From: an uncultured Oceanisphaera sp.
GTDB taxonomy: Bacteria > Pseudomonadota > Gammaproteobacteria > Enterobacterales > Aeromonadaceae
DNA length: 64,000 nucleotides
Direction: 5' to 3'
NCBI RefSeq assembly: GCF_947495715.1
Contig: NZ_CANLZU010000014.1
Location: 57,696 to 121,695, forward strand
The translations under genes were made by a program, and so were the position numbers. Under the pieces are notes generated by a model. It saw only the letters and a program-made list of their open reading frames with translations, searched no databases and was not told where the DNA came from. Positions 10,757 to 55,995 of the stretch are shown one piece after another. How positions within the stretch are numbered: the first letter of the stretch is position 1; each line of letters starts with the position of its first letter.

Positions 10757-11026
10757 GAAGAGGAAACAAGGTTGCCTCCGCCGACACGCTTCAAGTACGT
10801 CCATGTAACGCTCAGCACATGACATCCCTGTCATGTGACGGTCGGCTGAGGCAATCCCTGTCGCCTCTTCCATGACCCGGAGCTGTCTGTTGGAAGTGCC
10901 ATCAGGCGACTCCGCAGCCCGGAGGAGGACAAAGGGATCTGCTCCGCCGACCTTCTGTTTCAGGGATGAAACAGAGAGCCTACACGGAGGTATTCATGGC
11001 GTGTCGGCGGAGCGGGCCCTTTGTCC
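10757..11026 (+). repeat. Structured intergenic repeat, copy 1 (B module + linker hairpin + A module)
   Basis: Module B (10757-10870) has inverted outer arms starting GAAGAGGAAACA and ending GTCGCCTCTTC, with an inner hairpin CACATGAC-atccct-GTCATGTG. The linker 10871-10926 can pair CGGAG with CTCCG. Module A (10927-11026) has outer arms GGACAAAGGGATCTGCTCCG and CGGAGCGGGCCCTTTGTCC, with the tip hairpin TCTGTTTC-agggat-GAAACAGA. It fills the space between the convergent ends of nadB and ygfX. No ORF is supported. Confidence 0.85.
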
Positions 11027-11053
11027 GCAACGGTAAGTGCTAACGATGACGTA

Positions 11054-11437
11054 TTAACTGGCCAGCAGCACTTTCTGCGACAGCCGCCGGAACACCTGCT
11101 CCGGCACCGCATCCTGAAACAGCCACAGCGGCGGCCAGGGATCGTCTTTCAGCACCAGCAACAAAAAGCCGGGCCCGGCCCGGCTATGTGGCGACAAGAC
11201 GCCGCTGCGCCCGTTCAGGCTGAGCACGCCGCTGTTGTATTCCCCCTCCAGCCGGTAATCGCCACCGCGAATCCACAGCAATATCGACACCAGCAGCCAA
11301 CCGGGGGCAAACCAGGGCAGCCGATCGGCACTCAGCAACAGGCTGGCGGGTAACCACAAGGCGGTGGCCGCCGCCAGCAGATAACAGCGATGCAAACGGG
11401 ACGGCTCAGCGCTGATTGCGAACCTGGTTACGCTCAA
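11054..11437 (-). CDS. ygfX: YgfX/CptA-like membrane protein
   Basis: Partner gene of sdhE. In E. coli, YgfX (CptA) has been described as a toxin affecting MreB/FtsZ or as a succinate-dehydrogenase-related membrane protein. Reading from ISAEPSRLHRCYLL there are two close hydrophobic helices (YLLAAATALWLPASLLL and WFAPGWLLVSILLWI), then a beta-rich tail. No ATG gives a sensible start. TTG codons at 11437 or 11395 are the candidates, so the start is uncertain. It overlaps the sdhE 3' end, as in E. coli. Confidence 0.6.
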   Translation of the reverse strand: MSVTRFAISAEPSRLHRCYLLAAATALWLPASLLLSADRLPWFAPGWLLVSILLWIRGGDYRLEGEYNSGVLSLNGRSGVLSPHSRAGPGFLLLVLKDDPWPPLWLFQDAVPEQVFRRLSQKVLLAS

Positions 11438-11669
11438 GAATATATTCCACCATGGCCTGCAGTTGTGCATCGTCGGTGCGCTGATGACCCATAAACCAGG
11501 CGAACAGGTCCGGATCATCGCATTCCAGCAAACGACGGAATGCCGCCTTGTGCGCTTCGCTCAGCCCGTCGTATTCGTGTTCGACAAAGGGCGCAAGAAT
11601 CACGTCCAGCTCCAGCATGCCACGGCGGCAGGCCCAGACAAGACGCGGTTTATCAGAAAGTTTGACCAT
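11406..11669 (-). CDS. sdhE: FAD assembly factor SdhE
   Basis: SdhE (YgfY/CptB) helps attach FAD covalently to the flavoprotein subunits of succinate dehydrogenase and fumarate reductase. The product has 87 residues from ATG at 11669, which is preceded by GGAAG at good spacing. It contains the family motif RRGMLELD and the stretch LLECDDPDLFAWFMG. An eight-codon upstream extension is open but lacks support. It is divergent from ygfZ and overlaps ygfX, the same arrangement as in E. coli. Confidence 0.93.
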   Translation of the reverse strand: MVKLSDKPRLVWACRRGMLELDVILAPFVEHEYDGLSEAHKAAFRRLLECDDPDLFAWFMGHQRTDDAQLQAMVEYILERNQVRNQR

Positions 11670-11794
11670 GGTGGCTTCCAGAAAATAAAACAAAGCTCAT
11701 GGTATAAGGTCGAATGAGTACTGACAAATGTGTTGGCCATCTTTACCATGAAGGTCACACTTAATTTACCGATAGCCAATCAAGGGAGCGTCCC

Positions 11795-12706
11795 GTGTTG
11801 ACTCTTGCTTCTTCTCCCATGCTTTACCCCCTGACCGACAGGGCCGTGATCGGCCTGACCGGCGCAGACAGAACCAAATACCTGCAGGGTCAGGTTACCT
11901 GTGATGTAAACCAGCTTAATCCCGGTGATGCCACCGCCGGCGGCCATTGCGACAGCAAGGGCAAACTGTGGGCCTCGTTCTGGCTGGCCAACCTGGGCGA
12001 GCAACTGCTGCTGGTGCTCAACCGGTCACTGGTGGCACGTCAGTTGCCGGAACTGAAAAAATTCGCCGTGTTCGCCGATACCGAGGTCGAAGACGTCAGC
12101 TCGCAATGGCAGGTGTTCGGCCTGGCCGGCGAAGGCCTGTCTCACTGGCTCAACCATCAGCTTGGCGACGGCAATCTGTTGCAGGGCGGAATCGTGATTC
12201 CCGTGGCGGCCGAACATGCCTTGCTGCTGTTGCCGCAAGGCGCCGAGCTGCCCGAACTGTCCGAACTGCCCCGCGGCAGCGAGCAGGAATGGCAGGGGCT
12301 GATGATTCATGCCGGCCTGCCGGACATGAGCGCCGAGCATCAGGGAGAATATATTCCGCAGATGCTCAACCTGCAGGCCATCGGTGGCATCAGCTTCACC
12401 AAGGGCTGCTACATGGGTCAGGAAACCGTGGCCCGTGCCAAATATCGGGGCGCCAACAAGAAGGCGATGTTCGTGCTGACCGGCACCGCCTCGGACGGCA
12501 TCGCCGTCAATCAGGATCTGGAGCTGCAACTGGGCGACAACTGGCGTCGGGCCGGTACCGTGCTGAGCGTCTGGCAACAAGGTGAAGAGTGTCTGTTGAC
12601 CGCCGTGCTTAACAAAGATCTGGAGTCCGACGCGGTATTCCGCATCAAGGGCCAGGACGACAGCCGGCTGAGCCTGCAGCCCCTGCCCTACAAACTGGTC
12701 GATTGA
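11795..12706 (+). CDS. ygfZ: Folate-dependent iron-sulfur/tRNA maturation protein YgfZ
   Basis: YgfZ is a folate-binding protein of the GcvT-like fold needed for some Fe-S enzymes such as MiaB. The 303-residue product has the signature KGCYMGQE (203-210), with the conserved cysteine, and the N-terminal LTGADRTKYLQGQVTCDV. I keep the GTG start at 11795 because GGGAG lies six bases upstream. Its 3' end overlaps the convergent LysR gene by 19 bases. The divergent neighbour sdhE is a functional relative in Fe-S/flavin enzyme assembly. Confidence 0.95.
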   Translation: MLTLASSPMLYPLTDRAVIGLTGADRTKYLQGQVTCDVNQLNPGDATAGGHCDSKGKLWASFWLANLGEQLLLVLNRSLVARQLPELKKFAVFADTEVEDVSSQWQVFGLAGEGLSHWLNHQLGDGNLLQGGIVIPVAAEHALLLLPQGAELPELSELPRGSEQEWQGLMIHAGLPDMSAEHQGEYIPQMLNLQAIGGISFTKGCYMGQETVARAKYRGANKKAMFVLTGTASDGIAVNQDLELQLGDNWRRAGTVLSVWQQGEECLLTAVLNKDLESDAVFRIKGQDDSRLSLQPLPYKLVD

Positions 12707-13578
12707 GCCGCGGCAATTGCCGCCTCTTTCAACCAGGCAGCGGCCTTGCCCAGAGGCCGCTGCTTGTGCCAGATCAGTTCCAGAGCCACCGGCCAGTCCT
12801 GATCGTCAAACTCCAGCGCCGGCGAAACCAGATAACCATTAGCCAGAGCGCCGGCCACCACGTGGCCGGGCACAAAGGCCCAGCCCAGATTACGCTGTAC
12901 CAGCTCGACGATGACCCAGTGGCTTTCTACCCACCAGACATCGGCGGCCAGCCTTAGCCGGACTTTTTCTTCACTGTCGTTGCGGGTTGCCACCATCAGT
13001 TGCCGGTAACGCTTGAGCTCTTCCCACCCTACCCGCTGGCGGGCCAGTTGATGCTCCGGCGCACAGACAATTTTCAGCGGCACCCAGCCAAGCGCATGAA
13101 AGTTCAGGGCCGAAGGCAGAATTTCCTGACGCCACATAATGCCCAGATCGACCCGCTCTTCCAGCACCATGCGGCTGACATCCTCCATCAGCGGAAACAG
13201 CAGCTCCAGCTCGACGCTGGGAAAACGGCGGGCAAATTCATCCATCAGGCCACCCAGTAGATCCAGCGGGTAAAGTTCATCAACCGCCAGCACCAGCCGG
13301 CTTTCCACTCCTTCACCCAGGCTTTTGGCGACCCCGCGAAAATGCTCGCAGCGCTCGAGTATCACCCGCGCTTCCGCCAGTAGCCGCTCCCCGGCCGGCG
13401 TCAGGCGGGGATAGCGGCCACTGCGCAAAAACAGGCTGTTGCCCAGATCGATTTCCAGATTGGACACCGCGGTACTGATCACCGACTGGGCCTTGCCCAG
13501 TCGCCGGGCGGCGGCAGAGAAAGAGCCGGTATCCACGGTCGCCACAAAAGCCTGCAACTGCTCCAATGAAAAACTCAT
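12688..13578 (-). CDS. LysR-family transcriptional regulator
   Basis: The 296-residue protein has an N-terminal winged helix-turn-helix (LEQLQAFVATVDTGSFSAAARRLGKAQSVISTAVSNLE, about 4-42) and a LysR substrate-binding domain. Its effector is not recognisable. It is divergent from the PACE transporter gene with 91 bases between starts. LysR regulators often control such a divergent neighbour, and many PACE genes are paired with a LysR gene, so regulation of the pump is the likely role (inference). Confidence 0.9.
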   Translation of the reverse strand: MSFSLEQLQAFVATVDTGSFSAAARRLGKAQSVISTAVSNLEIDLGNSLFLRSGRYPRLTPAGERLLAEARVILERCEHFRGVAKSLGEGVESRLVLAVDELYPLDLLGGLMDEFARRFPSVELELLFPLMEDVSRMVLEERVDLGIMWRQEILPSALNFHALGWVPLKIVCAPEHQLARQRVGWEELKRYRQLMVATRNDSEEKVRLRLAADVWWVESHWVIVELVQRNLGWAFVPGHVVAGALANGYLVSPALEFDDQDWPVALELIWHKQRPLGKAAAWLKEAAIAAAQSTSL

Positions 13579-13669
13579 CTATCTATTAATCCGATACATT
13601 CCAACTTTGATATAGGATATTAGCAGATAGAATCAGTCTCTAAGACGATAACATCAGCAAGGAGTTTTC

Positions 13670-14104
13670 ATGCGTACCACCAAAGATCGTATTCGCCATA
13701 CCCTGGGATTCGAGATAATAGGTCTGATTATCTTTGCCCCGCTGGCCAGCTGGATCTTCGGCTTCGAACTCCACCTGATGGGCACCATGGCGGTGGTTGG
13801 CTCCATTATCGCCACCCTGTGGAATTATGTTTACAACCTGCTGTTTGATCACGCCATGCTGAAACTGCGCGGTGATGTGCGCAAGACAGTCCCGATTCGG
13901 GTGTCTCACGCCCTGCTGTTTGAAGGGGGTTTGCTGCTGCTGTTTATGCCGATGATCGCCTGGTATCTGGGTATTAGCCTGTGGGAGGCCTTCATGATGG
14001 ACATTGCCATGGCCACTTTTTATCTGGTGTATGCCTTCCTCTATAACCTGGCCTACGACAAGGTTTTTCCCATCCCGCATCCAACCCGCCGGGTACCCGG
14101 CTAG
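13670..14104 (+). CDS. PACE-family efflux transporter
   Basis: Proteobacterial Antimicrobial Compound Efflux proteins (AceI type) are small proton-coupled inner-membrane pumps exporting biocides such as chlorhexidine or, physiologically, short diamines. The 144-residue product has four membrane helices in two tandem BTP repeats. Conserved residues visible are RIRHTLGFEIIG with Glu15, WNYVYNLLFD, RVSHALLFEGG and FYLVYAFLYNLAYD. An AAGGAG ribosome site precedes the ATG. Substrate cannot be told from sequence. Confidence 0.92.
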   Translation: MRTTKDRIRHTLGFEIIGLIIFAPLASWIFGFELHLMGTMAVVGSIIATLWNYVYNLLFDHAMLKLRGDVRKTVPIRVSHALLFEGGLLLLFMPMIAWYLGISLWEAFMMDIAMATFYLVYAFLYNLAYDKVFPIPHPTRRVPG

Positions 14105-14120
14105 GATAGCCTGAACAAAA

Positions 14121-14145
14121 AAACCGCCTTTCGGCGGTTTTTTTT
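14121..14145. terminator. Bidirectional terminator between PACE gene and symporter
   Basis: Hairpin AAACCGCC-tttc-GGCGGTTT flanked by A and T runs. It can stop both converging genes. Confidence 0.9.
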
Positions 14146-14157
14146 CAATTCACTTTG

Positions 14158-15435
14158 TTATGACTTCTGGGTGGTTGGCGCCAGTTCGGCACCGTCTTCC
14201 AGCGCTTGTGGGTTGCCTTCCATCTTCGCCACTATGGTGTTGACGGCGGTATCGCCCACCACGTTGGACGCGGTACAGAACATGTCGTTGATGCGGTCCA
14301 CCGCCATGATAATGGCCATGGCTTCAATCGGCAGGCCCATCTGGTGCAGCAGTACACCAGCCATGACCACGGCACCGCCGGGTACACCGCCCACGCCCAC
14401 CGACATCAGCAACACGGTCACCCCCACGGTCAGCAGGTCACCGGCCGGAATCGGCGTGCCGGAAATGTTGGCGGCAAACATGGCAGCCAGGGTGATGTAG
14501 ATGGCCGAGCCGGACATGTTGATGGTCGCACCCAGCGGCACACCAAAACCGGCGATGGCACGGGACACGCCCAGCTTCTCGGTCAGGGTACGCATGGTCA
14601 CCGGAATGGTGGCGTTGGAGCTGGCGGTAGACAGCGAAAACAACAGCTGTTCACGAGTGGCCTTGCGGAACTCGCTCGGCTTGACGCCGGTAGTCAGCCA
14701 TACGGCCAGCGGATACACCACCAGAATCCAGAACGCCAGCACCAGTACCACCATGCCCACGTAGCCGGCAACCGACATCAGGGTGTTGGCTTCCAGGGTG
14801 GCACCCAGGCTTATCATCAGTGCAAACACGCCGTAAGGAGCCAGGGTCATCACCAGACCCACCAGCTTCATCATCACCTGGTTGGCCACGCGGAAGGTGC
14901 GCATCGCGGGGGCGGCGGCGCTGCCCATGGCCTGAATGGCCAGGCCGGTAATAATGGCCATGAAGATAATCTGCAGCATGTCACCGGAGGCAAAGGCCTG
15001 CACCGGGTTGCTGGGCACTATGCCGATCAGCATGGCGCCGATATCGGGTGTTTCGGTGGTGGCCAGCTCAACGGTAGTCGAGGCACCGTGCGGCAGAGTG
15101 GCGCCCATGCCCGGCTGAAAAATAACCCCGACCAGAATGGCGGCGGCAATCGACAGCATGGTGTTGATGACGTAAAGCCCGAAGGTTTTGCTGCCGAGGC
15201 GACCGAAGCTGGCAATATCACGCAGCTCGCAGATACCGGTCACGATGGAGATATAGACCAGCGGCACCACCATCAGCTTGATCAGTGACACAAACATACC
15301 GCCCAACCCTTCGGCCAGGCCCACCACGTTGTCGTTTAAAAACGAGACTCCAGTAAAAAGATACTGGATCATGCTGCCGATAATCAGACCGGCAAAAAGG
15401 CCGGCGAAAATGCGGGTAGAGAGAGAACCTTTCAT
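14158..15435 (-). CDS. Dicarboxylate/amino acid:cation symporter (SDF/DAACS family)
   Basis: A 425-residue inner-membrane transporter of the glutamate/aspartate transporter fold that couples acidic amino acid or dicarboxylate uptake to Na+ or H+. Hydrophobic helices run throughout. Family motifs include the serine-rich re-entrant loop LSTASSNATIPVTM, GATINMSGSAIY (the usual NMDGT is here NMSGS) and VDRINDMFCTASNVVGD near the C terminus. The gene faces away from the ectoine cluster. A link with aspartate, the end product of ectoine breakdown, is possible but unproven. Confidence 0.88.
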   Translation of the reverse strand: MKGSLSTRIFAGLFAGLIIGSMIQYLFTGVSFLNDNVVGLAEGLGGMFVSLIKLMVVPLVYISIVTGICELRDIASFGRLGSKTFGLYVINTMLSIAAAILVGVIFQPGMGATLPHGASTTVELATTETPDIGAMLIGIVPSNPVQAFASGDMLQIIFMAIITGLAIQAMGSAAAPAMRTFRVANQVMMKLVGLVMTLAPYGVFALMISLGATLEANTLMSVAGYVGMVVLVLAFWILVVYPLAVWLTTGVKPSEFRKATREQLLFSLSTASSNATIPVTMRTLTEKLGVSRAIAGFGVPLGATINMSGSAIYITLAAMFAANISGTPIPAGDLLTVGVTVLLMSVGVGGVPGGAVVMAGVLLHQMGLPIEAMAIIMAVDRINDMFCTASNVVGDTAVNTIVAKMEGNPQALEDGAELAPTTQKS

Positions 15436-16037
15436 TGTGTATTCCTCAGCAAAACCTGAACGATTGATCTGCTATTGATTGTTTTTATAGATAAGTAAAC
15501 TGGCTCAGTTGGCAAGTCGCAGAATTTTACATTTAAAAAACAGATCGGCAACCCCGCAAGCGGCACAACTGGTTACATCGTGAACAGAATCACAATTTTT
15601 TATCATTTATAAAATAAATTTAATATTCGAATGAGGCTGGCTTAACCTCGTTCTGCCCCATCGGCAGCCTGAACTGCGCCTCCTCTACCGATGCGATCGC
15701 CGGGAGCGGTATTCAAGCATTCAACCGCCTTGATGCAGGCGCCGGGTTCGTTGCTATGCTGAAAAAAAGGATGAGTACCACTTGAGCACCATGGGCCGCG
15801 GGCCCCTTGAGGTCATTCGCATGAAGAAAGATCGCCAGACAATCACCTTGCTTCCTGTCATCTGCGTGCGAGCCGGCATTCGCCGGTGCTACCGGTCGTT
15901 GCCGTCAACGTCGAGCATGCCTTCGGTTGATCGCTGAGCGGGGTTGTGACGCCCCCGGCACAACCGTCCACAGATTCAATCACAACCGCCTGTCGAGGCA
16001 GGCCAAGGTCCGATCATCGGCTATCGCGAGGCGCTAC
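15436..16037. other. 602-base intergenic region between symporter and doeA
   Basis: It should hold the divergent promoters of the symporter and doeA. About 15480-15650 is clearly AT-rich; the rest has normal GC content. I see no convincing tRNA, repeat or conserved ORF. A 48-codon frame starts at an ATG near 15791 but resembles nothing I know. Confidence 0.5.
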
Positions 16038-17225
16038 ATGCACAATCCACTGCCCAGCTTTTCCATCGAGGAATATCAGCAACGCCTGACCAAGGTCAGA
16101 GACGCCATGACAAGGCAGGATATCCAGACGCTGATCCTGCACGATCCCTCCAATATCGCCTGGCTGACGGGTTACGACGGCTGGTCTTTTTATACCCCTC
16201 AGGTGGTGGTGGTCGGCCCGGCCGGTGAACCCATCTGGTATGGCCGACAGATGGATTCCAACGGTGCCAGACGTACCGTCTATCTGCAGGAAGAGAATAT
16301 TACCTGGTATCCGGACTATTACGTGATGAATCCACCGATGCATGCCATGGAGTACCTGGCCAACCAGTTGCTCAGGCCTCGCGACTGGGCCTACGGCAAC
16401 ATCGGCGTCGAAATGGATAACTACTATTTCAGCCCCACCGCCTACCTGGCCTTGCGCGACAACCTGCCCGACGCCGACCTGGTGGACGCCACCGCCCTGG
16501 TCAACTGGTGCCGGGCGATAAAATCGGAAACCGAGCTGCGTTACATGCGCATCGCCGCCCGCATCGTCGAGAACATGCACAGAGCTGCGCTGGAGATGAT
16601 AGAGCCCGGCCTGCCCAAGAACCGGCTGGTGGCCGAAATCTATCGGGTGGCAATGGAAGGTCATGACGGTCATTACGGCGATTATCCGGCCGTGGTGCCC
16701 ATGCTGCCCTCGGGCAAGGATGCCTCGGCGCCCCACCTGACCTGGGACGAGCGCCCCTTCAATAACAACGAAGGCACCTTTTTCGAACTCGCCGGCTGTC
16801 ATCGGCGCTATCACTGTATTCTGTCGCGCACCATCTATCTGGGTCAGCCGACCAACGACTTTCTGCGCGCCGAAGCCGCCCTTAATGCCGGGCTGGAAGC
16901 CGGCCTGGCCGCCGCCAAACCCGGTAACCGCTGCGCCGATATTGCCAATGCCCTCAACGCCACCCTGGCGGAATACGGTTTCGACCGGGAAGGCGCCCGC
17001 TGTGGTTACCCCATCGGCCTCAGTTATCCGCCGGACTGGGGCGAGCGCACCATGAGCCTGCGCAACACCGACCAGACCATACTGGAGACGGGCATGGCCT
17101 TTCACTTCATGCCCGGCCTGTGGCTGGACGACTGGGGCATGGAAACCACAGAGAGCATCGTCATCACCCACACCGGGGTAGAAACCCTGAGCAACTACCC
17201 ACGGCAACTGTTTGTGAAGAGGTAA
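16038..17225 (+). CDS. doeA: Ectoine hydrolase DoeA (M24 creatinase-like)
   Basis: DoeA opens the ring of the compatible solute ectoine to N-acetyl-diaminobutyrate, the first step of ectoine use as carbon and nitrogen source. From ATG 16038 it has 395 residues; the frame is open 37 codons upstream without conserved content. Hallmarks are DPSNIAWLTGYDGWSFY near the N terminus, VEMDNYYFS, SAPHLTWDERP and the C-terminal GYPIGLSYPPDWGERTMSLR. The fold is creatinase-like and the usual M24 metal ligands are not evident. It is followed after 5 bases by doeX. Confidence 0.9.
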   Translation: MHNPLPSFSIEEYQQRLTKVRDAMTRQDIQTLILHDPSNIAWLTGYDGWSFYTPQVVVVGPAGEPIWYGRQMDSNGARRTVYLQEENITWYPDYYVMNPPMHAMEYLANQLLRPRDWAYGNIGVEMDNYYFSPTAYLALRDNLPDADLVDATALVNWCRAIKSETELRYMRIAARIVENMHRAALEMIEPGLPKNRLVAEIYRVAMEGHDGHYGDYPAVVPMLPSGKDASAPHLTWDERPFNNNEGTFFELAGCHRRYHCILSRTIYLGQPTNDFLRAEAALNAGLEAGLAAAKPGNRCADIANALNATLAEYGFDREGARCGYPIGLSYPPDWGERTMSLRNTDQTILETGMAFHFMPGLWLDDWGMETTESIVITHTGVETLSNYPRQLFVKR

Positions 17226-17230
17226 CAGAC

Positions 17231-17710
17231 ATGCGACTGGATCGTTACGACATCAAGATTCTGCAGATACTGCACCGGCAGGGCCGCATCACCAAGTCGG
17301 GCCTGGCCGATGCCATCAGCCTGTCGGTCAGCCCCTGCTGGGAGCGGGTAAAGCGGCTGGAAGAAGCCGGCATCATCGAAGGCTATGGCGTACGCATCAA
17401 CAGCGAAGCCCTGTTTCGGTATACACCGGTGCTGGTGGAAGTGAGCCTCAAACAGCACAGCGCCGAGGCGTTTCAGCGCTTCGAACAGGCCATGATCGAC
17501 TGCGAACCGGTGGTGGACTGCTACGCCACCGGCGGCGGCGTGGATTACATACTGCGGGTGATGTGCGAGGGCATCGATCAATACCAACGACTGATAGACG
17601 GCTGGCTGGAGTCCAATATCGGCATCGAGCGTTACTTCACCTACATCGTCACCAAAACCATCAAGCAACAGCCGCCCGGGCTGGTATTCGACGCAGACGC
17701 ACTGGCCTGA
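17231..17710 (+). CDS. doeX: Lrp/AsnC-family regulator DoeX
   Basis: The 159-residue protein has an AsnC-type helix-turn-helix (LDRYDIKILQILHRQGRITKSGLADAISLSVSPCWERVKRLEEAG) and an effector-binding RAM-like domain. It directly follows doeA, as DoeX does in Halomonas, where it responds to ectoine breakdown intermediates. The start at 17231 is chosen because the conserved text starts there; the frame is open further upstream inside doeA. It probably controls the doe genes, including doeC and doeD downstream. Confidence 0.88.
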   Translation: MRLDRYDIKILQILHRQGRITKSGLADAISLSVSPCWERVKRLEEAGIIEGYGVRINSEALFRYTPVLVEVSLKQHSAEAFQRFEQAMIDCEPVVDCYATGGGVDYILRVMCEGIDQYQRLIDGWLESNIGIERYFTYIVTKTIKQQPPGLVFDADALA

Positions 17711-17859
17711 TATTACCGTTTGCGGCCCGCCAGAAGAAAACCGTTTTTTCGGCGGGCGGATCAGAAAAATCATCACCTTAGTGCCACCGCAACAAAAAGT
17801 ATCTCGCCACCTTCCCTCCTAGAATGACCTCATGGCAACAATGCTGTGGCCAGACGCCA

Positions 17860-17900
17860 CATTCAATAACCCATGTTCAATAGCCTATGTTCAATAGCCC
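17860..17900. repeat. Three tandem ~14-base repeats upstream of doeC
   Basis: The unit ATGTTCAATAGCCT occurs at 17873-17886 and, with one change at its last base, at 17887-17900. A less exact unit (CATTCAATAACCC) precedes them. The last unit ends next to the doeC ribosome site. They could be duplicated regulator sites or a simple slippage product. Confidence 0.6.
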
Positions 17901-17914
17901 GGGAGGTGCCGCCG

Positions 17915-19426: not shown

Positions 19427-19452
19427 ACCAGACCGTTCAAGGAGTGACGACC

Positions 19453-20853: not shown

Positions 20854-20860
20854 CGTAAGA

Positions 20861-20888
20861 GGTGAAGCGTGAGGAGTGAGGGGTAAAA
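20861..20888. repeat. Half copy of the GTGAGG-type repeat
   Basis: The text GAAGCGTGAGGAGTGAGGGG matches one arm of the long hairpins at 45687-45757 and 51397-51464, but no opposite arm is present. Confidence 0.5.
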
Positions 20889-20910
20889 CCATCGCTAATC
20901 TGAAGATAAG

Positions 20911-20939
20911 CACCGAACCTGCCGGTTCGGTGTTTTTTT
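20911..20939 (+). terminator. Rho-independent terminator after doeD
   Basis: Hairpin CACCGAACC-tgcc-GGTTCGGTG followed by seven T. Confidence 0.92.
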
Positions 20940-20941
20940 AC

Positions 20942-24488: not shown

Positions 24489-24824
24489 TAAAATATCCCT
24501 TTTCTGCCAAATGTTTATACAACGTACATCGTCTGTACGCCAATTCCAACCCTTCGGGGTTCTCTGGAATTCTCCGGGCAAGTCACCGGCAAGAACCTGC
24601 AGCACGGCGCGCACACCCCAAGAACGCCCCCTGCAGACCCGCCAGCTAACGCCGGCAGCGACATTTCATAACACCGATTGCCAAGCCAAAAACAAGATCC
24701 TGACGCACGTCTGGATGACGGCAAAAACATCCCGCTGAAACGGGACGGGCAGCTAAAGCGCCAGCCTACAGGAATACGGTGTCTGTTTCTGGTTTGGCCA
24801 CAGGCCACTCCACTATTTAAAGCA
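24489..24824. other. Intergenic region upstream of the ATP-grasp gene
   Basis: It holds the presumed promoter of the ATP-grasp/papain-like pair close to 24489-24540 and the small hairpin repeat at 24695-24745. The rest shows no conserved ORF or RNA gene that I can recognise. Confidence 0.5.
24695..24745. repeat. CGTCAT-type double hairpin repeat
   Basis: An imperfect hairpin related to ATCCTGACG/CGTCAGGAT, the conserved text GATGACGGCAAAAA, then a second hairpin TCCCG-ctgaaa-CGGGA. It is very similar to 21065-21110. Confidence 0.5.
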
Positions 24825-24927
24825 GGATGAAGGGATCTGCTCCGCCGACCATCACATGACAGGGATGTCATGTGCTGAGCGTCACAGGGAGGTGCTCGAG
24901 CGGGTCGGCGGAGCGGGCCCTTTGTCC
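24825..24927 (+). repeat. Structured intergenic repeat, copy 2 (A module only)
   Basis: Outer arms GATCTGCTCCGCCGACC and GGTCGGCGGAGCGGG..., ending CCCTTTGTCC. The tip hairpin is CACATGAC-agggat-GTCATGTG. No B module is next to it. It lies between the lysS terminator and the ATP-grasp gene, oriented against those minus-strand genes. Confidence 0.8.
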
Positions 24928-26520: not shown

Positions 26521-26579
26521 GATTAAGCCTTGTTTGAATCTTTTCGATAAAATAACTTGAGTCCGAGTCACGCCACGGC

Positions 26580-26672
26580 GATCAGCACTGCACGCAGACA
26601 CGCCGTAAACCCTTCCATGGGGGCTCCACCGCGCCTTCCCTGGCGCGGAGGGTCTGCTTGGCAGCATCTGAC
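26580..26672 (-). repeat. Decayed copy of the structured intergenic repeat
   Basis: Outer arms (26580-26599 and 26652-26672) still pair imperfectly. The inner hairpin CCGCGCC-ttccct-GGCGCGG (26629-26648) is nearly the same as the tip hairpin of copy 6. It sits between the prfB stop and lysS start. Confidence 0.6.
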
Positions 26673-32802: not shown

Positions 32803-33069
32803 GGACAAAGGGCCCGCTCCGCCGACTCGCTTTCACATCCCTGTCCGCTCAGGACATGCCATCCCTGGCATGTCATGGTCGGCGGAGCAGATCCCTTTGT
32901 CCTCTTTCGGCTCCGGCGTCGCCTGTGTGTGACGCCTACGGTCTACTCCGATGCAAATGAAGAGGCAACAGAGACGACCTCCCGCGACCGTGAAATGCCA
33001 AGGATGGCATTTCCGAGCCCCCAGGGACGGGTTTATGGCGTGTCGAGGGAGGCGGCTCTGTTGCCTCTT
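32803..33069 (-). repeat. Structured intergenic repeat, copy 3 (A and B modules, reverse orientation)
   Basis: Read on the minus strand, B (33069-32960) comes first after the xerD stop, then a linker, then A (32902-32803) before recJ. B has outer arms AAGAGGCAACAGAG and CTCTGTTGCCTCTT with the tip GAAATGCC-aaggat-GGCATTTC. A has arms GGACAAAGGGCCCGCTCCG and its partner, with the tip GACATGCC-atccct-GGCATGTC. Confidence 0.85.
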
Positions 33070-34571: not shown

Positions 34572-34578
34572 TCATAAT

Positions 34579-35074
34579 ATCAATCCCAGTAATGAGCTGG
34601 TCATATTGAGGCCCCAGACCAGAGGCAACACAGCCGTCTCCCTCGACACGCTCAGATAAATGACACTCACAGTTGCAGCCTACTGCGAACATCCACTGGA
34701 TGTTCGGTCAGGCTGCAACCGTTCGTCACGGCGAGGCAAGCTCGCCCCCTAGGGGCTCGGAAATGCCGTCTGACCGCCAGGGATGGCGGGAATGCCGGAA
34801 CGGCAGGAGCATTTTTCGGCCATGGCATTTCACGGTCGTGGGAGCCGTTCTCTGTTGCCTCTTTTTGAACACCGAGTTGCCCGAAGGCAGTGCTAACAGG
34901 TGACGTCGGAGCATCAAGGAGGGCAAGGGGATCTGCTCCACCGACCATCACATGACAGGGACGTCATGTGCTGAGCGTCACAAGGAGGTGCTTGAGCGGG
35001 TCGGTGGGGCGGGCCCTTTGTCCGAGATTGGTATGACAGTCAAAAAAATCGAATGTTTAATGCGATGGGTATAA
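34579..35074 (+). mobile_element. MITE-like element with structured repeat copy 4
   Basis: About 500 bases without an ORF. Imperfect terminal inverted repeats lie at 34579-34602 and about 35051-35074; the latter resembles the right end of the element at 39187-39631. Inside are an enlarged B module (34621-34863), a linker hairpin and an A module (34922-35023). B has an extra nested arm at 34672-34719 (GTTGCAGCC/GGCTGCAAC around GAACATCC/GGATGTTC) and a hairpin CCGCC-agggat-GGCGG inserted within the loop of the GAAATGCC/GGCATTTC stem. Confidence 0.7.
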
Positions 35075-39148: not shown

Positions 39149-39186
39149 TTTTGTTGTTATTCCCGCCTGAGCTACTCGCATTAAAC

Positions 39187-39631
39187 ACCAATTACATTAA
39201 GTACCTGATCATATTGAGGCCTCTGACCAGAGGCAACACAGCCGTCCCCCTCGACACGCCACTGGGCTAGCCATCTTTGCCGGGTAACGGCTGCGAATAT
39301 TCACTGGATATTCGGTCCATTACCCAACAAAGATATACGGCAGCAAGCTGCCCCATGGGGGCTCGGAAATGCCGTCCCTGGCATTTCACGGTCGTGGGAG
39401 CCGTTCTCTGTTGCCTCTTCTCGAGCACCGAGTTGTCTGTAGACTGCGCTAACAGGCAACTCCCTGGCATCAGGGAGGACAAAAGGATCTGCTCCACCGA
39501 CCATCACATGCCATGGATGGCATGTGTGAGCCTTACATGGATGTACTTGTAGCGGGTCGGTGGAGCTGGCCCTTTGTCCGACCTTTACACTGCAAATGGA
39601 ACAGATCATTTGTTTAGTGGGATTGGTATGA
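39187..39631 (+). mobile_element. MITE-like element with structured repeat copy 5
   Basis: No ORF. The left end 39187-39210 and the reverse complement of the right end (about 39604-39628) match at 17 of 24 bases. Inside are B (39229-39419), a linker with GAGTTGTCTGT/ACAGGCAACTC, and A (39477-39579). B has a nested extra arm at 39273-39333, like copy 4 but with different, still complementary, stem bases. It is bordered on both sides by near-identical terminator cassettes. Confidence 0.7.
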
Positions 39632-45757: not shown

Positions 45758-45812
45758 ATCTGGCTGCCACGGTGTTATCATGCGCGCTCAGACGCCTGAC
45801 AGGAGCTCAAAG

Positions 45813-47557: not shown

Positions 47558-47608
47558 TACGGGTAAACTTGCCGTTATTACAGCCTTCACTCTGCGGGCC
47601 GGAGCCTT

Positions 47609-48343: not shown

Positions 48344-48531
48344 ACAAGATCACCACAGTACCCTGCCCTACCTGTAAAAAAACGGTGGAATGGGGCGAGC
48401 AGAGCCCGTTTCGTCCCTTCTGCAGCAAACGTTGTCAGCTGATCGATCTGGGTGAATGGGCCGACGAAGAGAAGCGCATTCCCGGCGACCCGGCCTGGCT
48501 GCCGGATCAGGATGATGAAAATGAGGTCTGA
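48340..48531 (+). CDS. yacG: DNA gyrase inhibitor YacG, zinc protein
   Basis: A 63-residue protein with a four-cysteine zinc site: CPTC (Cys9, Cys12) and CSKRC (Cys28, Cys32), then [15 protein letters not shown]. In E. coli it binds GyrB and blocks DNA binding. It overlaps zapD and mutT, so the three genes are probably one transcript. Confidence 0.94.
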
Positions 48532-48937
48532 TACCGTCAAAAAGTCGGTGCTGGTGGCGGTGGGCGTGATTGAAAATACCGAGGGCGAGATATTCATCTG
48601 CCGCCGTGGCGCCAGCCAGCATCAGGCCAACAAGTGGGAGTTTCCCGGTGGCAAGGTCGAAGCCGGCGAAACCGTGGCCCAGGCCCTGGCCCGCGAGCTG
48701 GCAGAAGAAATCGGCATTCGAGTAACCGACTGTCATTCCTTCATGCTCATCGAACACGACTACGGCGACAAGCAGGTGACGCTCGATATCCGCAAAGTCA
48801 CCGCCTTCACCGGCGAGCCGCACGGCCTCGAAGGCCAGCCCAGCCGCTGGGTACCGGTCACCGAGCTGCACAGCTACGACTTTCCCGCCGCCAACAGCCC
48901 GATTGTCAACAAGCTGCAGACCGAAGCCGGACACTGA
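48521..48937 (+). CDS. mutT: 8-oxo-dGTP diphosphatase MutT
   Basis: MutT removes 8-oxo-dGTP from the nucleotide pool. The start ATG 48521 overlaps yacG by 11 bases; 138 residues. The Nudix box is [23 protein letters not shown], and NKWEFPGG precedes it as in true MutT. It is last in the zapD-yacG-mutT run. Confidence 0.94.
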
Positions 48938-49269
48938 AGCCACTCCATATCAACAAGAGGTGTTCGGCGACCGTTTTTATTCCGCCGGATATCACAGCAA
49001 ATAATAACGAGTCAACACAGCGCCAGATGTCCTCTGGCGCAACGCGAATGCAGGCTCAACTCGTTGCTGAAATCACCGCCCCCATCTACATCCCAAACAA
49101 ACTGCCCCGGTACACATCTTTCACAGACAGAACAACAGAAACATCACGCAAACAATGTTAAACAAAACAGATAAAAACTAAACAAAATATTAACAAGCAT
49201 TCTTGACACTCTTCGCCTGGCCTGCCTAAGCTAGCTCATTCTCAACTCGTCTCGTGAACCATCTCCCCC
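48938..49269. other. 332-base AT-rich intergenic region before the second chemoreceptor
   Basis: From about 49100 to 49200 it is strongly A-rich, unlike its surroundings. A sigma-70-like promoter TTGACA (49203-49208), 18 bases, TAAGCT (49227-49232) precedes the chemoreceptor start. I see no ORF, RNA gene or FliA-type promoter here. Confidence 0.55.
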
Positions 49270-51228
49270 ATGCGTATTCAACATAAACTGATCCTGGCCT
49301 TGCTGCTGACCACGCTGCTGCCGATAGGACTGCTGTCCGCCTTCACCATCCACCAGGCCCGCCAGTTGGCAGGGGAGCGTTTCCTGGAGCAGGGCCAGAG
49401 TGAAATTCACAAGCTGGATCAGGCGTTCAGTGCCCATTTCGAGCAAATAGGCCAGGACGTAGCGTTTCTCGCCACCTCTCCCTTGCTGGCTCGGGCCGAC
49501 AACAGTATCAGCTCTTATCATCAGGGCCCGGATCGGAAGATGACACCGGATCGTAACGGCGGCATCGAGACCGAGATATACCGGGAATTCGAACGCTTCG
49601 CCGACAGCCATCCGGGCCTGGCCTACGTCTACATGGGTACCCGGGACGGCGGCTATGTGCAATGGCCGCTGGGCGAGGTCACCGCCGGCTATGACCCCCG
49701 CCCGCGCCCATGGTATCAGAAAGCCCAGGAAGCCCCCGGCCAGGTAATGCGCACCGGCGCCTTCTACTGGCCGGTAGACGACAACACCATGATCGGGATA
49801 GTGCGCAGCTTCAAGAACCAGGATGGCCAGGATTATGGCGTCATGGCGATGGACGTGTCCCTGAAAGAGCTGACCAACATGACTCAACAGACCCAGCTCG
49901 GAGAGAAGGGCTACCTGATGCTGATCGAAGACGGTGGCACCGTGCTGGTGGATGCCGCCCGACCGGAACACAATTTCCGTCTCCTGTCCGAGCTGGAAGG
50001 CGAAGGTTACCGCCGTCTGTCCGACACCAACGCAGGCCAGCTTGAGCTGGAGCTCGGCGGTGAGGACTTCCGGGCTCTGGTATATCCTTCCCCCTCCCTC
50101 GGCTGGAAGTTCATTGCCCTGATGCCGGAACACGAGATCCTGGCTCCGGCCCAGCAGATGCTATGGACCACGCTGGGCAGTACCGCCCTGGTGGTGGTTC
50201 TGGTATTACTGCTGGCCTGGTGGCTGTCAGGACTGCTGGTCAACCCCATACTGGCGGTGAGCCGCGGGCTCAAGGACATCGCTCAGGGCGAAGGAGATCT
50301 GACCCGCCGCCTCACCATCGGCAGCCGGGACGAAACCGGCGAGCTGGCTCGCTGGTTCAATCAGTTCCTGGAGTCCATCCAGCAGCTGGTAATCCGCATC
50401 AAGGATACCGCCCATCAGGTCGATGCCGTGTCTACCCTCGGTCGTGAGAATGCGACGGCGGTAGACACCGCCAGCGGTCATCAGCTGAAGGAAGTAGAAC
50501 GCATGGCCACCGCCCTGACCGAGATGTCGGCCTCCGCCAACGAGGTAGCCAACAACTGCAACAGGTCGGCCCAGGCGGCGGCCCAGGGCCAGCGTGCCGG
50601 CGACCAGGGCAAGGCCGTGATGCTGGACACAGAGGCAAGCGTGCGGGCCCTGAGCGAGCAGCTGGGTCAGTCGGCGCTGCATATCCGCCAGCTGGAGGCG
50701 GAAAGCGGTCGAATCAACTCCATTCTGGATGTTATCCGCGGCATCGCCGAACAGACCAACCTGCTGGCCCTCAACGCCGCCATCGAGGCAGCACGGGCCG
50801 GGGAGCATGGCCGGGGCTTCGCGGTGGTGGCAGACGAGGTGCGTACCCTGGCACAACGCACCCAGGTGTCCACCGCCGAGATCGACAGCCTGCTGGCCGG
50901 CCTCAACCAGCAAACTCGTCAGGCAGTGGAAAACATGGAGGCCAGCCAGCAGCAGTCGGAGCAGGTGGTGCTACGCTCGGGCCAGGCACGAGATGCATTC
51001 GAAGCTATCAAGGTATCGGTAGACGAAATCACCGACATGACCACCCAGATCTCCAGCGCCGCCGAGCAGCAGCATCAGGTGGCGGAGAGCATCAACGCCA
51101 ATATTGGCGCCATCCATAGCGCTGCCAGCGAGGTCAATCAGGTCTCGACCCAGGTGGCCGATACCGCCGGGCGCCAGGCCGACCTGGCCGGTGAGCTGGG
51201 CAAGCTGGTCAATCAGTTCCGGATCTGA
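49270..51228 (+). CDS. Methyl-accepting chemotaxis protein with dCache sensor
   Basis: A 652-residue chemoreceptor: membrane helix (about 7-27), periplasmic dCache_1 domain, second membrane segment near 300-322, HAMP ([22 protein letters not shown]) and a signalling tip [32 protein letters not shown]. The sensor has Tyr141, Arg146, Trp148 and Tyr149 in the spacing of the amino-acid-binding motif; the matching Asp is probably Asp195, two residues later than usual. It is a paralogue of the receptor at 28003 with a clearly different sensor. There is no C-terminal pentapeptide tether. Confidence 0.93.
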
Positions 51229-51231
51229 GCA

Positions 51232-51313
<82 letters not shown>

Positions 51314-51396
51314 GTGACTGCAAACGAGCGGTTTTCGGCAAGATTCGGATGTAACGGGGAAACCCCACCACCGATAATGGAACCTCCAAAATAAAT

Positions 51397-51464
51397 GTGA
51401 GGGGTAAAGGGTGAGACGTAAGGGGTATCAAATTTCCCCTCACGCCTTTCCCTTCACCCCTCAC
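51397..51464. repeat. Long GTGAGG-type hairpin beside the parC stop
   Basis: Arms begin GTGAGGGGTAAAGGGTGAG and end CCTTCACCCCTCAC; they pair imperfectly over about 29 bases. A T run follows on the plus strand. The same family as 45687-45757. Confidence 0.75.
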
Positions 51465-51469
51465 GTTTT

Positions 51470-53716
51470 TTATTCGATTTCCAGGCTGTCTACCCGTTGC
51501 AGGCCGCGGGGCAGCAGGGCGCCACGGCGACCGCGTTCGCCCTGATAATGGGCCAGATCGGCGGGTTTGAGGGTCAGCTTGCGCTTGCCCGCATGCAGGG
51601 TGACGTTAGCCCCAACCGGCACCACCACCAGCTGCTTGATGAAGTCTTCCCGCGCCTGCACCTTGGCACCGGGAATGCCGATGATCTTGTTGCCCTTGCC
51701 CTTGCCCAGCAACGGCAGATCCTTGAGCGGAAACAGCAACATGCGGCCTTCATTGGTCACCGCCAGACACTGGCTGCTGTCCAGCTGATCGACCGCCACG
51801 GGTTTCAGCACCACACCGCCGGTGGGCACCGTCAGCAGCGCCTTGCCGTTCTTGTTGCGGCTGACCATGTCACCGAAGCGGCAGACGAAACCGTAACCGG
51901 CGTCGGACGCCATCAGGAACAGCCGCTCGTCGTCGCCCATCAGCACAAAGTTGGCCTGCTCGCCCGGACTCAGGCTGCAGCGGCCGGTCAGTGGCTCGCC
52001 CTGACCTCGGGCCGAGGGCAGACTGTGGGCATCCTGACCGTAGGCGCGACCGATATTGGACAGAAATACCGCCATCTGGTTACTGCGCCCGGAGGCCGCA
52101 TCCAGAAAGTGGTCGCCCGCCTTGTAGTTCAGGGTGGTGCCGTCCACATCCAGACCCTTGGCCGAGCGGATCCAGCCCTTGTCAGACAGCACCACGGTCA
52201 CCGGTTCGCTCGGGATCAGCTCTTTCTCGCTCAGGGCTTTGGCTTCTTCCCGCTCGACCAGCGGCGACAGCCGGTCGTCACCGTATTTTTCGGCGTCGGC
52301 CAGTATCTCTTTCTTGATCAGGGTATTAAGCCGGCGCTCGGAGCCCAGCAACAGGGCCAGCTTGTCACGCTCGGCGGCCAGCTCGTCCTGCTCACCGCGG
52401 ATCTTCACTTCTTCCAGCTTGGCCAGGTGGCGCAGTTTCAGCTCCAGAATGGCTTCGGCCTGGATCTCGGTCAGCTCGAAGCGGCTCATCAGCACCGGCT
52501 TGGGCTCGTCCTCACTGCGGATGATCTCGATCACCTCGTCGATATTGAGGAAGGCGATCAGCAGACCGGCCAGAATATGCAGCCGGGCCTCGACCTTGTC
52601 CAGCCGGTATTGCAGCCGGTTGCGCACCGTTTGCCGACGGAACTGCAGCCATTCGCCGAGGATCATATTCAACGTCTTCACCTGAGGCCGGCTGTCCAGC
52701 CCCAGCATGTTGAGGTTGACCCGGTAGCTCTTCTCCAGATCGGTGCTGGCAAACAGGTGCTGCATCAGCTGATCCACGTCTACCCGGTTGGATCGGGGAA
52801 TGATCACCAGCCGGGTCGGGTTTTCGTGATCCGCTTCATCGCGCAGATCCGCCACCATCGGCAGCTTCTTCGCCTGCATCTGGCCGGCGATCTGCTCCAG
52901 GATCTTGCCGCCGCTGGCCTGATGCGGCAGCGCGGTGATCACGATATCGCCCTGCTCCATCTGGTAGACGGCCCGCATCTTGATACTGCCCCGGCCGGTT
53001 TCGTAAATTTTGCGAATATCGGCCCTGGGGGTAATGATTTCGGCCCGGGTCGGGTAGTCGGGGCCGTCCACGAAGGCCATCAGCTCTGCTACCGTCGCCT
53101 TGGGATTGTCCAGCATGTGCACACAGGCATTGGCGATTTCACGCACGTTGTGCGGCGGAACATCGGTGGCCATGCCCACGGCGATGCCGGTAATGCCGTT
53201 CAGCAGTATGTGCGGCAGCCGGGCCGGCAGCATGCGCGGCTCTTTCATGGTGCCGTCGAAGTTGGGAATCCACTCCACCGTGCCCTGGCCCAGCTCGGAC
53301 AACAGCAGCTCGGAGAAACGGGACAATCGCGCCTCGGTATAACGCATGGCGGCGAACGACTTGGGATCGTCCGGCGCGCCCCAGTTACCCTGACCATCCA
53401 CCAGCGGATAACGGTAAGAGAACGGCTGAGCCATCAGCACCATGGCCTCGTAACAGGCGGAGTCGCCGTGGGGATGATACTTACCCAGCACGTCGCCCAC
53501 GGTACGGGCGGACTTCTTGTGCTTGGACAGGGCCGACAGGCCCAGTTCGCTCATGGCGTAGATGATGCGGCGCTGCACCGGCTTGAGGCCATCGCCGATA
53601 TGGGGCAAGGCTCTGTCCATGATCACGTACATGGAATAGTTGAGATAGGCCTGCTCGGTAAAGGTGTGCAATGGCAGGCGCTCTACGCCTTCCATGGTAA
53701 AATCGTTGTTGTTCAT
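51470..53716 (-). CDS. parC: DNA topoisomerase IV subunit A
   Basis: ParC is the DNA-cleaving subunit that, with ParE, decatenates chromosomes. The 748-residue product has the catalytic Tyr126 in [14 protein letters not shown] and the quinolone region [13 protein letters not shown]. Ser86 and Glu90 (equivalent to Ser80/Glu84 in E. coli) are wild type, so no target-site quinolone resistance is visible. The C-terminal pinwheel domain is complete. parE lies 13 bases upstream on the same strand, unlike in E. coli, where the genes are apart. Confidence 0.97.
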
Positions 53717-53729
53717 TCTGTCTCTTTCC

Positions 53730-55625
53730 TCAGGCCAGGGGGTCGACCAGGTTGCCCTTGGTTTCCAGCCATTCGCGGCGATCGCTTGAACGCTTCTTGG
53801 CCAGCAGCATGTCCATCAGTTTCTCGGTGGCTTCCATGTCGTCCACCGTCAGCTGCACCAGCCGGCGGGTGTTGGGATCCAGGGTGGTTTCGCGCAATTG
53901 CTTGGGGTTCATCTCACCCAGGCCCTTGAAGCGGGTCACCTGCACCTTGCCTTTTTTCTTCTCGGCCTTGATCCGTTCCAGTACACCGTCGCGCTCGCCT
54001 TCGTCGAGGGCATAGAACACTTCCTTGCCCACATCGATGCGATACAGCGGCGGCATGGCCACATAGACATGCCCCTGCTCCACCAGATGATGGAAATGGC
54101 GCACAAACAGCGCGCACAGCAGGGTGGCGATATGCAGACCATCGGAGTCCGCATCGGCGAGAATACAAATCTTGCCGTAGCGCAGATCGGACAAGTCGGT
54201 CGAGTCCGGATCCAGGCCGATGGCCACCGAAATATCGTGCACTTCCTGCGAGGCCAGCACCTGGCCGGACTCGACTTCCCAGGTGTTCAGTATCTTGCCG
54301 CGCAGCGGCATGATGGCCTGAAACTCCCGATCCCGTGCCTGCTTGGCGCTGCCGCCGGCCGAGTCACCCTCAACCAGAAACAACTCGCCCCGCATGGGGT
54401 CGGAGCAGGCGCAGTCGGTCAGCTTGCCGGGCAGCGCCGGCCCCTGAGTCACCTTCTTGCGCACCACCTTCTTGGCCTGGCGCAGGCGGCGCTGGGCGCT
54501 GCTGATACACAGCTCGGCAATCTGCTCGGCCAGCTCGGTATGCTGGTTCAGCCACAGGCTGAAGGCATCTTTCACGATGCCGGAAACGAAAGCAGAACAC
54601 TGACGTGACGACAGCCGCTCCTTGGTCTGACCGGCGAACTGGGGATCCTGCATCTTGACCGAGAGGATATAGGCGCAGCGTTCCCAGATATCGTCCGGCG
54701 TCAGCTTGACGCCACGCGGCAGCAGGTTGCGGAATTCGCAGAAGTCGCGCATGGCATCGAGCAGGCCCTGTCGCAGGCCGTTGACATGGGTACCGCCCTG
54801 GGCGGTGGGGATCAGGTTGACGTAGCTTTCGCCCAGCCCCTCGCCGCCGTCGGGCAGCCAGGTCAGCGCCCATTCCACCGCCGACTGCTCGGTGGCAAAG
54901 TTGCCGGTAAACGGCTGCTCGGGCAGGCAGGTGAAGTCCTTGACCGACTCCACCAGGTAGTCTTTCAGGCCGTCCTGATAACACCATTCCAGGGTTTCGT
55001 CGTTGACCTTGTCCTGAAAGCGAATAGTCAGGCCCGGGCAGAGTACCGCCTTGGCCTTGAGCAGGTGCTTGAGCCGGGAAACGGAGAATCGGGGAGAGTC
55101 GAAGTAGCCGGCATCGGGCCAGAACCGTACCCGGGTGCCGCTGTTGCGCTGGCCACAGGTGCCGGTGACGGTGAGTTCACTCACCTTGTTGCCGTTTTCG
55201 AAGGCCATCTCGAACACCTGGCCACCACGACGCACGGTCACGTCCACCCGAGTACTCAGGCCGTTGACCACCGAGATACCCACGCCGTGCAGACCGCCGG
55301 AAAACTGGTAGTTCTTGTTGGAAAACTTGCCGCCGGCGTGCAGCTTGCAGAAGATCAGCTCGACCCCGGAGATGCCTTCTTCCGGGTGAATGTCCACCGG
55401 CATGCCGCGGCCGTCATCAACAACTTCCAGCGACTGATCGGCATGCAGTATCACTTCGACCTTGCTGGCGTGGCCGGCCAGGGCCTCATCCACGCTGTTA
55501 TCGATAACTTCCTGACCCAGGTGGTTGGGTCGGCTAGTGTCCGTATACATGCCGGGGCGACGACGCACCGGCTCCAGACCATTGAGGACTTCAATGGCGT
55601 CGGCAGTATATTGACTCGATGTCAT
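53730..55625 (-). CDS. parE: DNA topoisomerase IV subunit B
   Basis: ParE is the ATPase subunit of topoisomerase IV. The 631-residue product has the GHKL ATP site ([45 protein letters not shown]) and the TOPRIM metal site ([27 protein letters not shown]). The quinolone-region text [14 protein letters not shown] is normal. It is followed by parC after 13 bases. Repeat copy 6 separates it from yqiA upstream. Confidence 0.97.
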
Positions 55626-55727
55626 ATTGACCTTCGGTAATCAGAATTCGTTGCCCGCATCTTACTACCTGCAGGCGCAAGCGCAAAGCGGCCCAAAACC
55701 CAGTGGCTGATACTTGAGTCCACAATC

Positions 55728-55995
55728 GGACAAAGGGCCCGCTCTGCCGACTCGCCGTGAATCCCTCCCTGGAGGCTCAGCCGCGCCATCCATGGCGCGG
55801 ATGGTCGGCTGAGCAGATCCCTTTGTCCTCCCTCAAGCAGCGGAGCCGCCTGATGACTCATCCAACAGACAGCTCCGGGTCATGGGAGAGGCTACAGGGA
55901 TTGCCTCCCACGACCGTGAAATGCCAGGGATGGCATTTCCGAGCCCCCATGGATGGGTTCATGGCGTGTCGAGGGAGGCAACTCTGTTGCCTCTT
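55728..55995 (-). repeat. Structured intergenic repeat, copy 6 (A and B modules, reverse orientation)
   Basis: On the minus strand, B (55995-55887) starts 32 bases after the yqiA stop, followed by a linker (CGGAGC/GCTCCG arms) and A (55828-55728) before parE. The B tip is GAAATGCC-agggat-GGCATTTC and the A tip is CCGCGCC-atccat-GGCGCGG. The linker matches that of copy 1 in inverse orientation. Confidence 0.85.

Follow-up and report, generated by a model that had tools for sequence, protein, structure and literature searches.

A widespread two-hairpin repeat of Oceanisphaera and other Gammaproteobacteria whose loops fit the Csr/Rsm binding motif

A 64,000-nucleotide stretch of the genome of an uncultured Oceanisphaera sp. 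(assembly GCF_947495715.1, contig NZ_CANLZU010000014.1, positions 57,696 to 121,695; hereafter the window) carries multiple copies of an intergenic element built from modules that each fold into a Y, in which an outer stem encloses a long hairpin of about 8 bp (hp1) and a short hairpin of 3 bp (hp2). The modules belong to a real and widespread structured repeat family that is without a name in the sources searched and, judged from their sequence, the loops of both hairpins fit the published high-affinity motif of the Csr/Rsm proteins, down to the division between letters that are read and letters that are looped out. CsrA/RsmA is a global post-transcriptional regulator, and the repeat may work as a mobile CsrA/RsmA-binding RNA module, a reading whose chances we judge to be even.

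The initial annotation of the window described a large modular structured repeat whose stems are replaced while remaining complementary, and both points hold. Across 34 diverse modules, 93.6% of cells are paired, both sides change in 12 of 19 pairs, and the covariation score is 0.467, as against 0.170 +/- 0.013 after shuffling (0/500); shifting the partner by 1-3 columns leaves a score of at most 0.086. Folded as RNA, four window modules have z-scores of -7.1 to -7.9, with 0 of 200 dinucleotide shuffles folding as well, and the scores range from -7.1 to -12.3 across six modules. The stems turn over, with 57 distinct 8-bp hp1 stems among 193 modules and 28 distinct 4-nt hp2 stem forms among 192, while the outer arms of Oceanisphaera modules fall into two main types (A and B). 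Part of this replacement consists of whole modules or tips exchanged at orthologous sites (copies 1, 3 and 6). The further claim that structure and not sequence is maintained is true of the stems and fails for the loops, both of which are near-invariant at A1, G3, G4, A5 and the closing C-G pair.

Despite their different stems, both loops read C-A-N-GGA-X-G, and the strand on which they read ANGGA (the GGA strand) is taken as the strand of the module. In hp1, the loop of 193 modules has A1 in 193, G3 in 192, G4 in 189, A5 in 190 and the closing C-G pair in 186; the corresponding counts for hp2, among 192 modules, are 191, 189, 187, 188 and 188. The N and X positions, by comparison, admit all four bases (hp1 N: G115, T41, A23, C14; X: T149, C36, G6, A2). 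In 88 modules from distant genomes the four core letters are present in 87-88 cases in both loops. When the loop columns were masked in the profile, ANGGA was still found in 330 of the 370 modules with a detectable hp1 (27 further modules had no detected hp1); the 40 without it include 11 whose loop is the five-base AGGAC or AGGAT and, among the rest, many in which the script had picked an outer-arm hairpin. Among 173 hp1 loops classed, from 180 tried in the distant modules and a closed genome (G308), 113 are ANGGAX, 28 ANGGAXX, 10 A-purine-GGA, 6 A-pyrimidine-GGA and 2 AGGAX, with 11 others that contain GGA and 3 that do not. Within the window, on either strand, an A(N)GGA loop occurs in 1 of 101 perfect hairpins (stem of at least 6, loop of 5-7) outside modules and in 11 of 20 inside them. 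The two loops of a module start 22-26 nt apart in 191 Oceanisphaera-group modules and 23 nt apart in 75 of 85 distant ones, a spacing that one Csr/Rsm dimer may be able to bridge.

The portions of the nuclear magnetic resonance (NMR) study of Duss et al. (PMC4005645) drawn on here give the high-affinity RsmE motif as an ANGGAX hexaloop that caps a stem directly and has both N and X looped out; omission of N or insertion of bases lowers the affinity, five-base AGGGA and AAGGA loops bind strongly, and loops without N bind more weakly. Base-specific contacts to A, G, G and A are described, in the corresponding part of Morris et al. (PMC3791407), for the RsmN structure, and systematic evolution of ligands by exponential enrichment (SELEX) gave the consensus RUACARGGAUGU with the motif in a hairpin loop, according to the section of PMC4347634 used. 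The rule for a Csr/Rsm site, namely an A(N)GGA loop directly on a stem, best as ANGGAX, closed by C-G or U-A, holds for the modules.

The N and X positions are also among the fastest to change in closely related copies. In 49 nearest-neighbour pairs of at least 90% identity, N differs in 33/98 and X in 14/97 cases, compared with 3/294 for GGA, 0/98 for A1, 3/196 for the closing pair, 21/880 for the stem and 153/3390 for other positions. In G308, 21 near-identical pairs give N 5/41, X 6/41, GGA 0/125 and other positions 52/1610, and all four N/X columns are among the six most variable core columns of family f1 (28 copies), where hp1-X and hp2-N lead; hp1-N heads the ranking in family f2 (40 copies), with hp2-X eighth, hp2-N tenth and hp1-X outside the first 14. 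Twelve pairs pooled from other genomes show N and X changing no faster than the rest (N 3/24, X 2/24, GGA 0/72, other 125/834). At orthologous sites, where 10 of 23 pairs were kept and some are exchanged modules, N and X together changed in 14/35 cases, the core in 2/71, closing pairs in 3/36 and other positions in 110/908. Fast change at N and X may reflect freedom or a raised mutation rate alike.

Wobble pairs indicate which strand is kept foldable. Counting single mismatches between Watson-Crick pairs by a symmetric rule, the outer stems of 82 distant modules, read on the GGA strand, have 65 G-T and 17 A-C (p = 9e-8), and those of 45 distinct G308 modules have 36 and 8. Oceanisphaera outer stems, among which related copies are counted many times, give 27 versus 6 for type A and 21 versus 9 for type B. 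The G-T excess thus marks the GGA strand as the one kept foldable; because single-stranded DNA would give the same sign, it fixes the strand and not the molecule, RNA or DNA.

The initial annotation counted six copies, and the family is far larger. A BLAST search with one copy returns 57 matches from the own genome, a count that includes partial ones and those on the opposite strand; the window together with 160 kb of contig C1 (224 kb in all) contains 20 elements, a density that would give some 300 per genome, and G308 carries at least 149 modules (149 of 150 scored candidates). The repeat is matched in all 22 other genomes of the genus and in 31 of 61 relatives overall, and exact matches to an outer-arm string occur in O. 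arctica, O. psychrotolerans, O. litoralis, one Zobellella and one metagenome-assembled genome. A covariance model finds matches at E<=1e-5 in 67 of 369 Gammaproteobacteria genomes (own included), representing 61 of 272 genera, in a search whose E-values are rough and in which at most 13 candidates were scored per genome. The outer stems of 85 distant modules continue past the modelled core, the median extension being 23 bp and 82 of them gaining at least 15 bp, and 81 of 84 inner ends are distinct; since the extension pairs lie outside the covariance model, they support the distant matches independently of the rough E-values. No match to the repeat was found in phages, and plasmids gave a single 60-nt match of 85% (NZ_CP040452.1, 1716105-1716165, a replicon of Halomonas sp. 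PA16-9) to the inner insert region of copy 4. Searches of the open-licence literature turned up nothing on the family, one core string matching an unrelated human-cell paper. The initial annotation gave the family no name, and Rfam offers no named counterpart: a scan of the window against Rfam 15 gave 11 matches at E<=1, all far below their gathering scores. Among them Ysr224, over the decayed copy (26552-26655), was rejected at 28.7 bits against a gathering score of 70 (E 0.019). Nor does the family belong to the CsrB small RNAs as their own model defines them, since the CsrB/RsmZ model leaves the modules unmatched and its matches in the own genome lie elsewhere.

The presumptive reader is present in most carriers. 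The own genome has a single CsrA, canonical both in length and in sequence; CsrA was found in 61 of 66 carrier genomes and, among the 55 with a completeness of 90% or more, in 54. Most genomes have one to two CsrA-family matches; G356 has eight and G400 seven.

Among 139 classified Oceanisphaera elements (26 at locus ends were left unclassified), 84 consist of two modules placed tail to tail with their GGA strands pointing outward, 51 are solo modules and 4 are other arrangements, the reverse pairing occurring in 0 of the 139. The arrangement of B, linker and A in the initial annotation is one case of a wider layout in which modules of either arm type stand tail to tail. Of 168 ends of paired elements, 28 bear the motif ATACCAAT, 8 bear TTGGTCAC and 132 neither; a longer form of the ATACCAAT end pattern has 66 occurrences in the own genome, as against 0 when it is read backwards. 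Identical 3-bp flanks, all of the form TNA, bound 23 of 29 end pairs that enclose module motifs, as against 9.1 when the right flanks are dealt anew, and 3 of the 6 remaining pairs belong to elements that were paired twice and do match with a different end. A subset of Oceanisphaera elements thus has the terminal inverted repeats and target-site duplications of miniature inverted-repeat transposable elements (MITEs), features that are absent or unclear in copies without TACCAATC ends. Since relatives are about 10% diverged and their junctions too blurred, the duplications were read at the ends of the elements themselves. Orthologous sites either lack the module, retain it or carry one of another type in its place. 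The TACCAATC ends and 3-bp TNA duplications imply that the hairpins need not be the transposition ends in these elements and look like cargo, moved, probably in trans, by a DDE-type transposase, in a kind of transposition that we take to be IS5/IS1031-like. No pair of TACCAATC ends with matching flanks 800-2200 bases apart, as expected of an autonomous partner, occurs in the sequence examined, which covered part of the genome. A second end type, TTGGTCACA(A/C)ATC, lies some 20-60 bases outside modules at six loci (L001, L004, L006, L007, L026 and L128). In genome G127 (L341-L350), modules form part of a bigger composite repeat, often close to the end of a contig, which has an additional GCGGTGC-ATCCCT-GCACCGC hairpin and ends of the CAGGCTGTTGAAAAA type.

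On these grounds, the RNA transcribed from the GGA strand of a module is predicted to bind CsrA/RsmA, and one CsrA dimer would occupy both of its loops. A DDE-type transposase acting in trans would spread the Oceanisphaera elements; transcribed copies would serve as CsrA decoys or landing sites, and copy number would set part of the cell's capacity to titrate CsrA. If so, the intergenic DNA of many Gammaproteobacteria is in part a mobile reservoir of CsrA/RsmA binding sites, unannotated repeats gain a function, and transposition becomes linked to the rewiring of a global RNA regulator. A bolder extension, which we offer tentatively and hold to be doubtful, is that throughout the class a Csr binding hairpin has been made into a dispersed mobile repeat, providing up to hundreds of two-site decoys per genome, so that, beside mutations in CsrA or CsrB, transposition and copy number would also drive the evolution of a global regulator's set-point. 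Rfam 15, which lacks this conserved structured family, would gain it, and even if the loops are read by a factor other than CsrA, a fold of two hairpins that is found across the class, with some loop letters fixed and others free to change, calls for a specific binding partner.

Several observations weigh against CsrA binding as the function of the repeat. The inner hairpins of Oceanisphaera (hp1 pairs 1-7, hp2 pairs 1-3) show no wobble asymmetry, with 16 G-T and 15 A-C, or 22 and 16 when the looser eighth hp1 pair is added. Placement relative to genes, called by a simple codon-usage script, lacks a sense bias: at tandem places, Oceanisphaera solo modules are sense in 12 cases and antisense in 20, distant modules, by their GGA strand, in 14 and 34 (p=0.0055), and G308 modules in 20 and 25. 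The antisense excess speaks against a simple role in mRNA tails, and sense-strand mRNA sites are unsupported in all three sets; sense copies could be costly and hence purged, which would also give the excess. The remaining distant modules are convergent (17), divergent (5), within a called gene (10) or at an edge (7), and those of G308 convergent (16), divergent (25), inside a gene (1) or at an edge (5). In a paired element, moreover, each strand has one module with the complementary AUCCNU loops, so only half can bind. As to the loops, 28 of 173 have seven bases and 6 of 173 are five-base A-pyrimidine-GGA loops, forms that are not among the high-affinity ones in the portions of PMC4005645 drawn on. 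The full SELEX 12-mer RUACARGGAUGU is present in only 4 of 193 modules and 11 of 88 distant ones (35/193 and 31/88 with at most one mismatch), and its rarity means that the match is to the loop rule. CsrB-type RNAs are already in the own genome, where two loci score above the Rfam cut-off and one more scores below (L128, L129, L130). Finally, CsrA was undetected in 5 of the 66 carriers, four of them 67-88% complete and one (G255) 98% complete, and the presence of CsrA in the other 61 carries little weight, given how common the protein is in this class.

The lack of a sense-strand bias is equally what a purely selfish element would show, one in which a mobilising enzyme (Y1/HUH or another that reads hairpins) recognises the fold and its loops in single-stranded DNA and whose likeness to Csr sites is a coincidence. 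The copies are mobile and many are near-identical, sites are empty or refilled in relatives, G-T is milder than A-C in DNA too, and 132 of the 168 element ends have neither of the end motifs sought. We consider this account rather unlikely, for it leaves the free N and X and the other, fixed loop letters unexplained, and the TACCAATC ends with TNA duplications in a subset of Oceanisphaera elements point to DDE transposition acting at ends and not at hairpins. Mobilisation by Y1/RAYT enzymes was rejected for want of linkage: 0 modules lie within 32 Y1 transposase loci, so that repeats do not flank Y1 genes as REP sequences flank RAYT genes, and no Y1 gene was detected in 2 of 16 carrier genomes (G298 and G406). 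Nor do the G308 modules listed (111 of 149) show a replication-strand bias, the best split being 21 against a null mean of 22.3. The own genome contains a partial Y1 transposase gene (L032, 1501-1713; a 108-residue open frame) that is presumably RAYT-like.

The very stable folds would also suit hairpins at transcript ends that block exonucleases or stop transcription, in the manner of REP/BIME sequences, with a loop inherited from the founder. Oceanisphaera elements are classified as convergent in 61, tandem in 73 and divergent in 5 cases, with 0 within called genes, and thus 134 of 139 lie downstream of at least one gene; in G308, however, divergent places are as common as others (25 of the 86 modules classified outside genes), and a founder effect fails to account for two unlike hairpins in which, across 61 genera, A, GGA and C-G stay fixed and N and X vary freely. 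This explanation seems to us distinctly improbable. Still less credible, and rejected here, is that kissing loops between ANGGAX and its complement join the two modules of an element into a single unit. The loops of oppositely oriented modules are complementary in principle, yet the match within elements is at chance (hp1 15/47 versus 13.0 shuffled; hp2 4/47 versus 6.6), and solo modules in other genera keep the same loops.

Four kinds of known system come closest to the repeat. Like the decoy RNAs CsrB/CsrC and RsmX/Y/Z, modules present several A(N)GGA-loop hairpins at short spacing on one strand, and their loop rule is identical to that of RsmZ in the part of PMC4005645 drawn on; the decoy RNAs, however, are encoded by one to few dedicated genes per genome, whereas modules exist in hundreds of dispersed copies of two loops each, with a long variable outer stem, inverted pairs and no terminator of their own seen. 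Many Oceanisphaera copies resemble MITEs in having terminal inverted repeats and 3-bp target duplications. MITEs such as ERIC or Correia elements are short, non-coding, intergenic and multi-copy; most repeat ends examined here, in contrast, lack recognised terminal repeats, and the conserved part is an internal RNA-like fold common to unrelated genera in which the outer sequence differs. Repetitive extragenic palindromes (REP) and the mosaic elements (BIMEs) formed from them, which are associated with RAYT (Y1) transposases, are likewise high-copy intergenic hairpins that often occur as inverted pairs, but the present repeat is larger, has a two-hairpin fold and has no Y1 transposase gene beside its modules. 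BOX elements of pneumococcus share the modular, structured, intergenic and multi-copy character; they come from another lineage, and the sequence comparison with them consists of the Rfam scan only.

Sequence reading and a profile scan place 12 modules in the window (Table 1), and every copy of the initial annotation, the solo and decayed ones included, was recovered at its place.

Table 1. Modules and whole elements of the repeat in the window (positions are those of the window; strand is that of the GGA loops).
Feature	Position	Strand	Remarks
Copy 1, first module	10758..10869	-	Outer arm type B; hp1 stem CACATGAC/GTCATGTG, loop AGGGAT; hp2 loop ATGGAC
Copy 1, second module	10928..11025	+	Outer arm type A; hp1 loop AGGGAT, hp2 loop ACGGAG
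Copy 2, solo module	24824..24927	+	Outer arm type A; both flanking genes antisense to GGA strand
Decayed solo module	26595..26664	-	Profile score weak, 31 bits
Copy 3, first module	32803..32906	-	Type A; tip stem differs at orthologous place in G016
Copy 3, second module	32960..33069	+	Type B; 94% identity to module at orthologous G016 place
Copy 4, first module	34621..34863	-	Type B; enlarged by inner inserts
Copy 4, second module	34919..35023	+	Type A
Copy 4, whole element	34578..35071	.	Ends TATCAATC (34578-34585) and GATGGGTA (35064-35071); TAA flanks both sides
Copy 5, first module	39229..39419	-	Type B, enlarged
Copy 5, second module	39478..39578	+	Type A
Copy 5, whole element	39186..39628	.	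Ends CACCAATT and GATTGGTA
Copy 6, first module	55729..55827	-	Type A; hp1 stem CCGCGCC/GGCGCGG
Copy 6, second module	55887..55995	+	Type B; hp1 stem GAAATGCC/GGCATTTC

The ends of copy 4, TATCAATC and GATGGGTA, read from the sequence as imperfect forms of TACCAATC and GATTGGTA, and this copy is absent from the 29 end pairs counted for flank duplication. No target duplication is visible at copy 5, the flanks of which are AAA and TGA. The first module of copy 4 has a 56-base insert (34768-34823) in place of its hp1 loop, within which a hairpin CGCC-AGGGAT-GGCG is read on the other strand from the GGA loops of the module, and similar inserts occur in loci L012, L014 and L022. Copy 3 (32803-33069) and its counterpart in the same-genus genome G016 (L132) have an equal layout with different tip stems in their first modules, as if these had been swapped by conversion or re-insertion. 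Elsewhere, five modules lie within 15 kb in one genome (G149:C3:19000-36000, L266), all on one strand, among called genes that run both ways.

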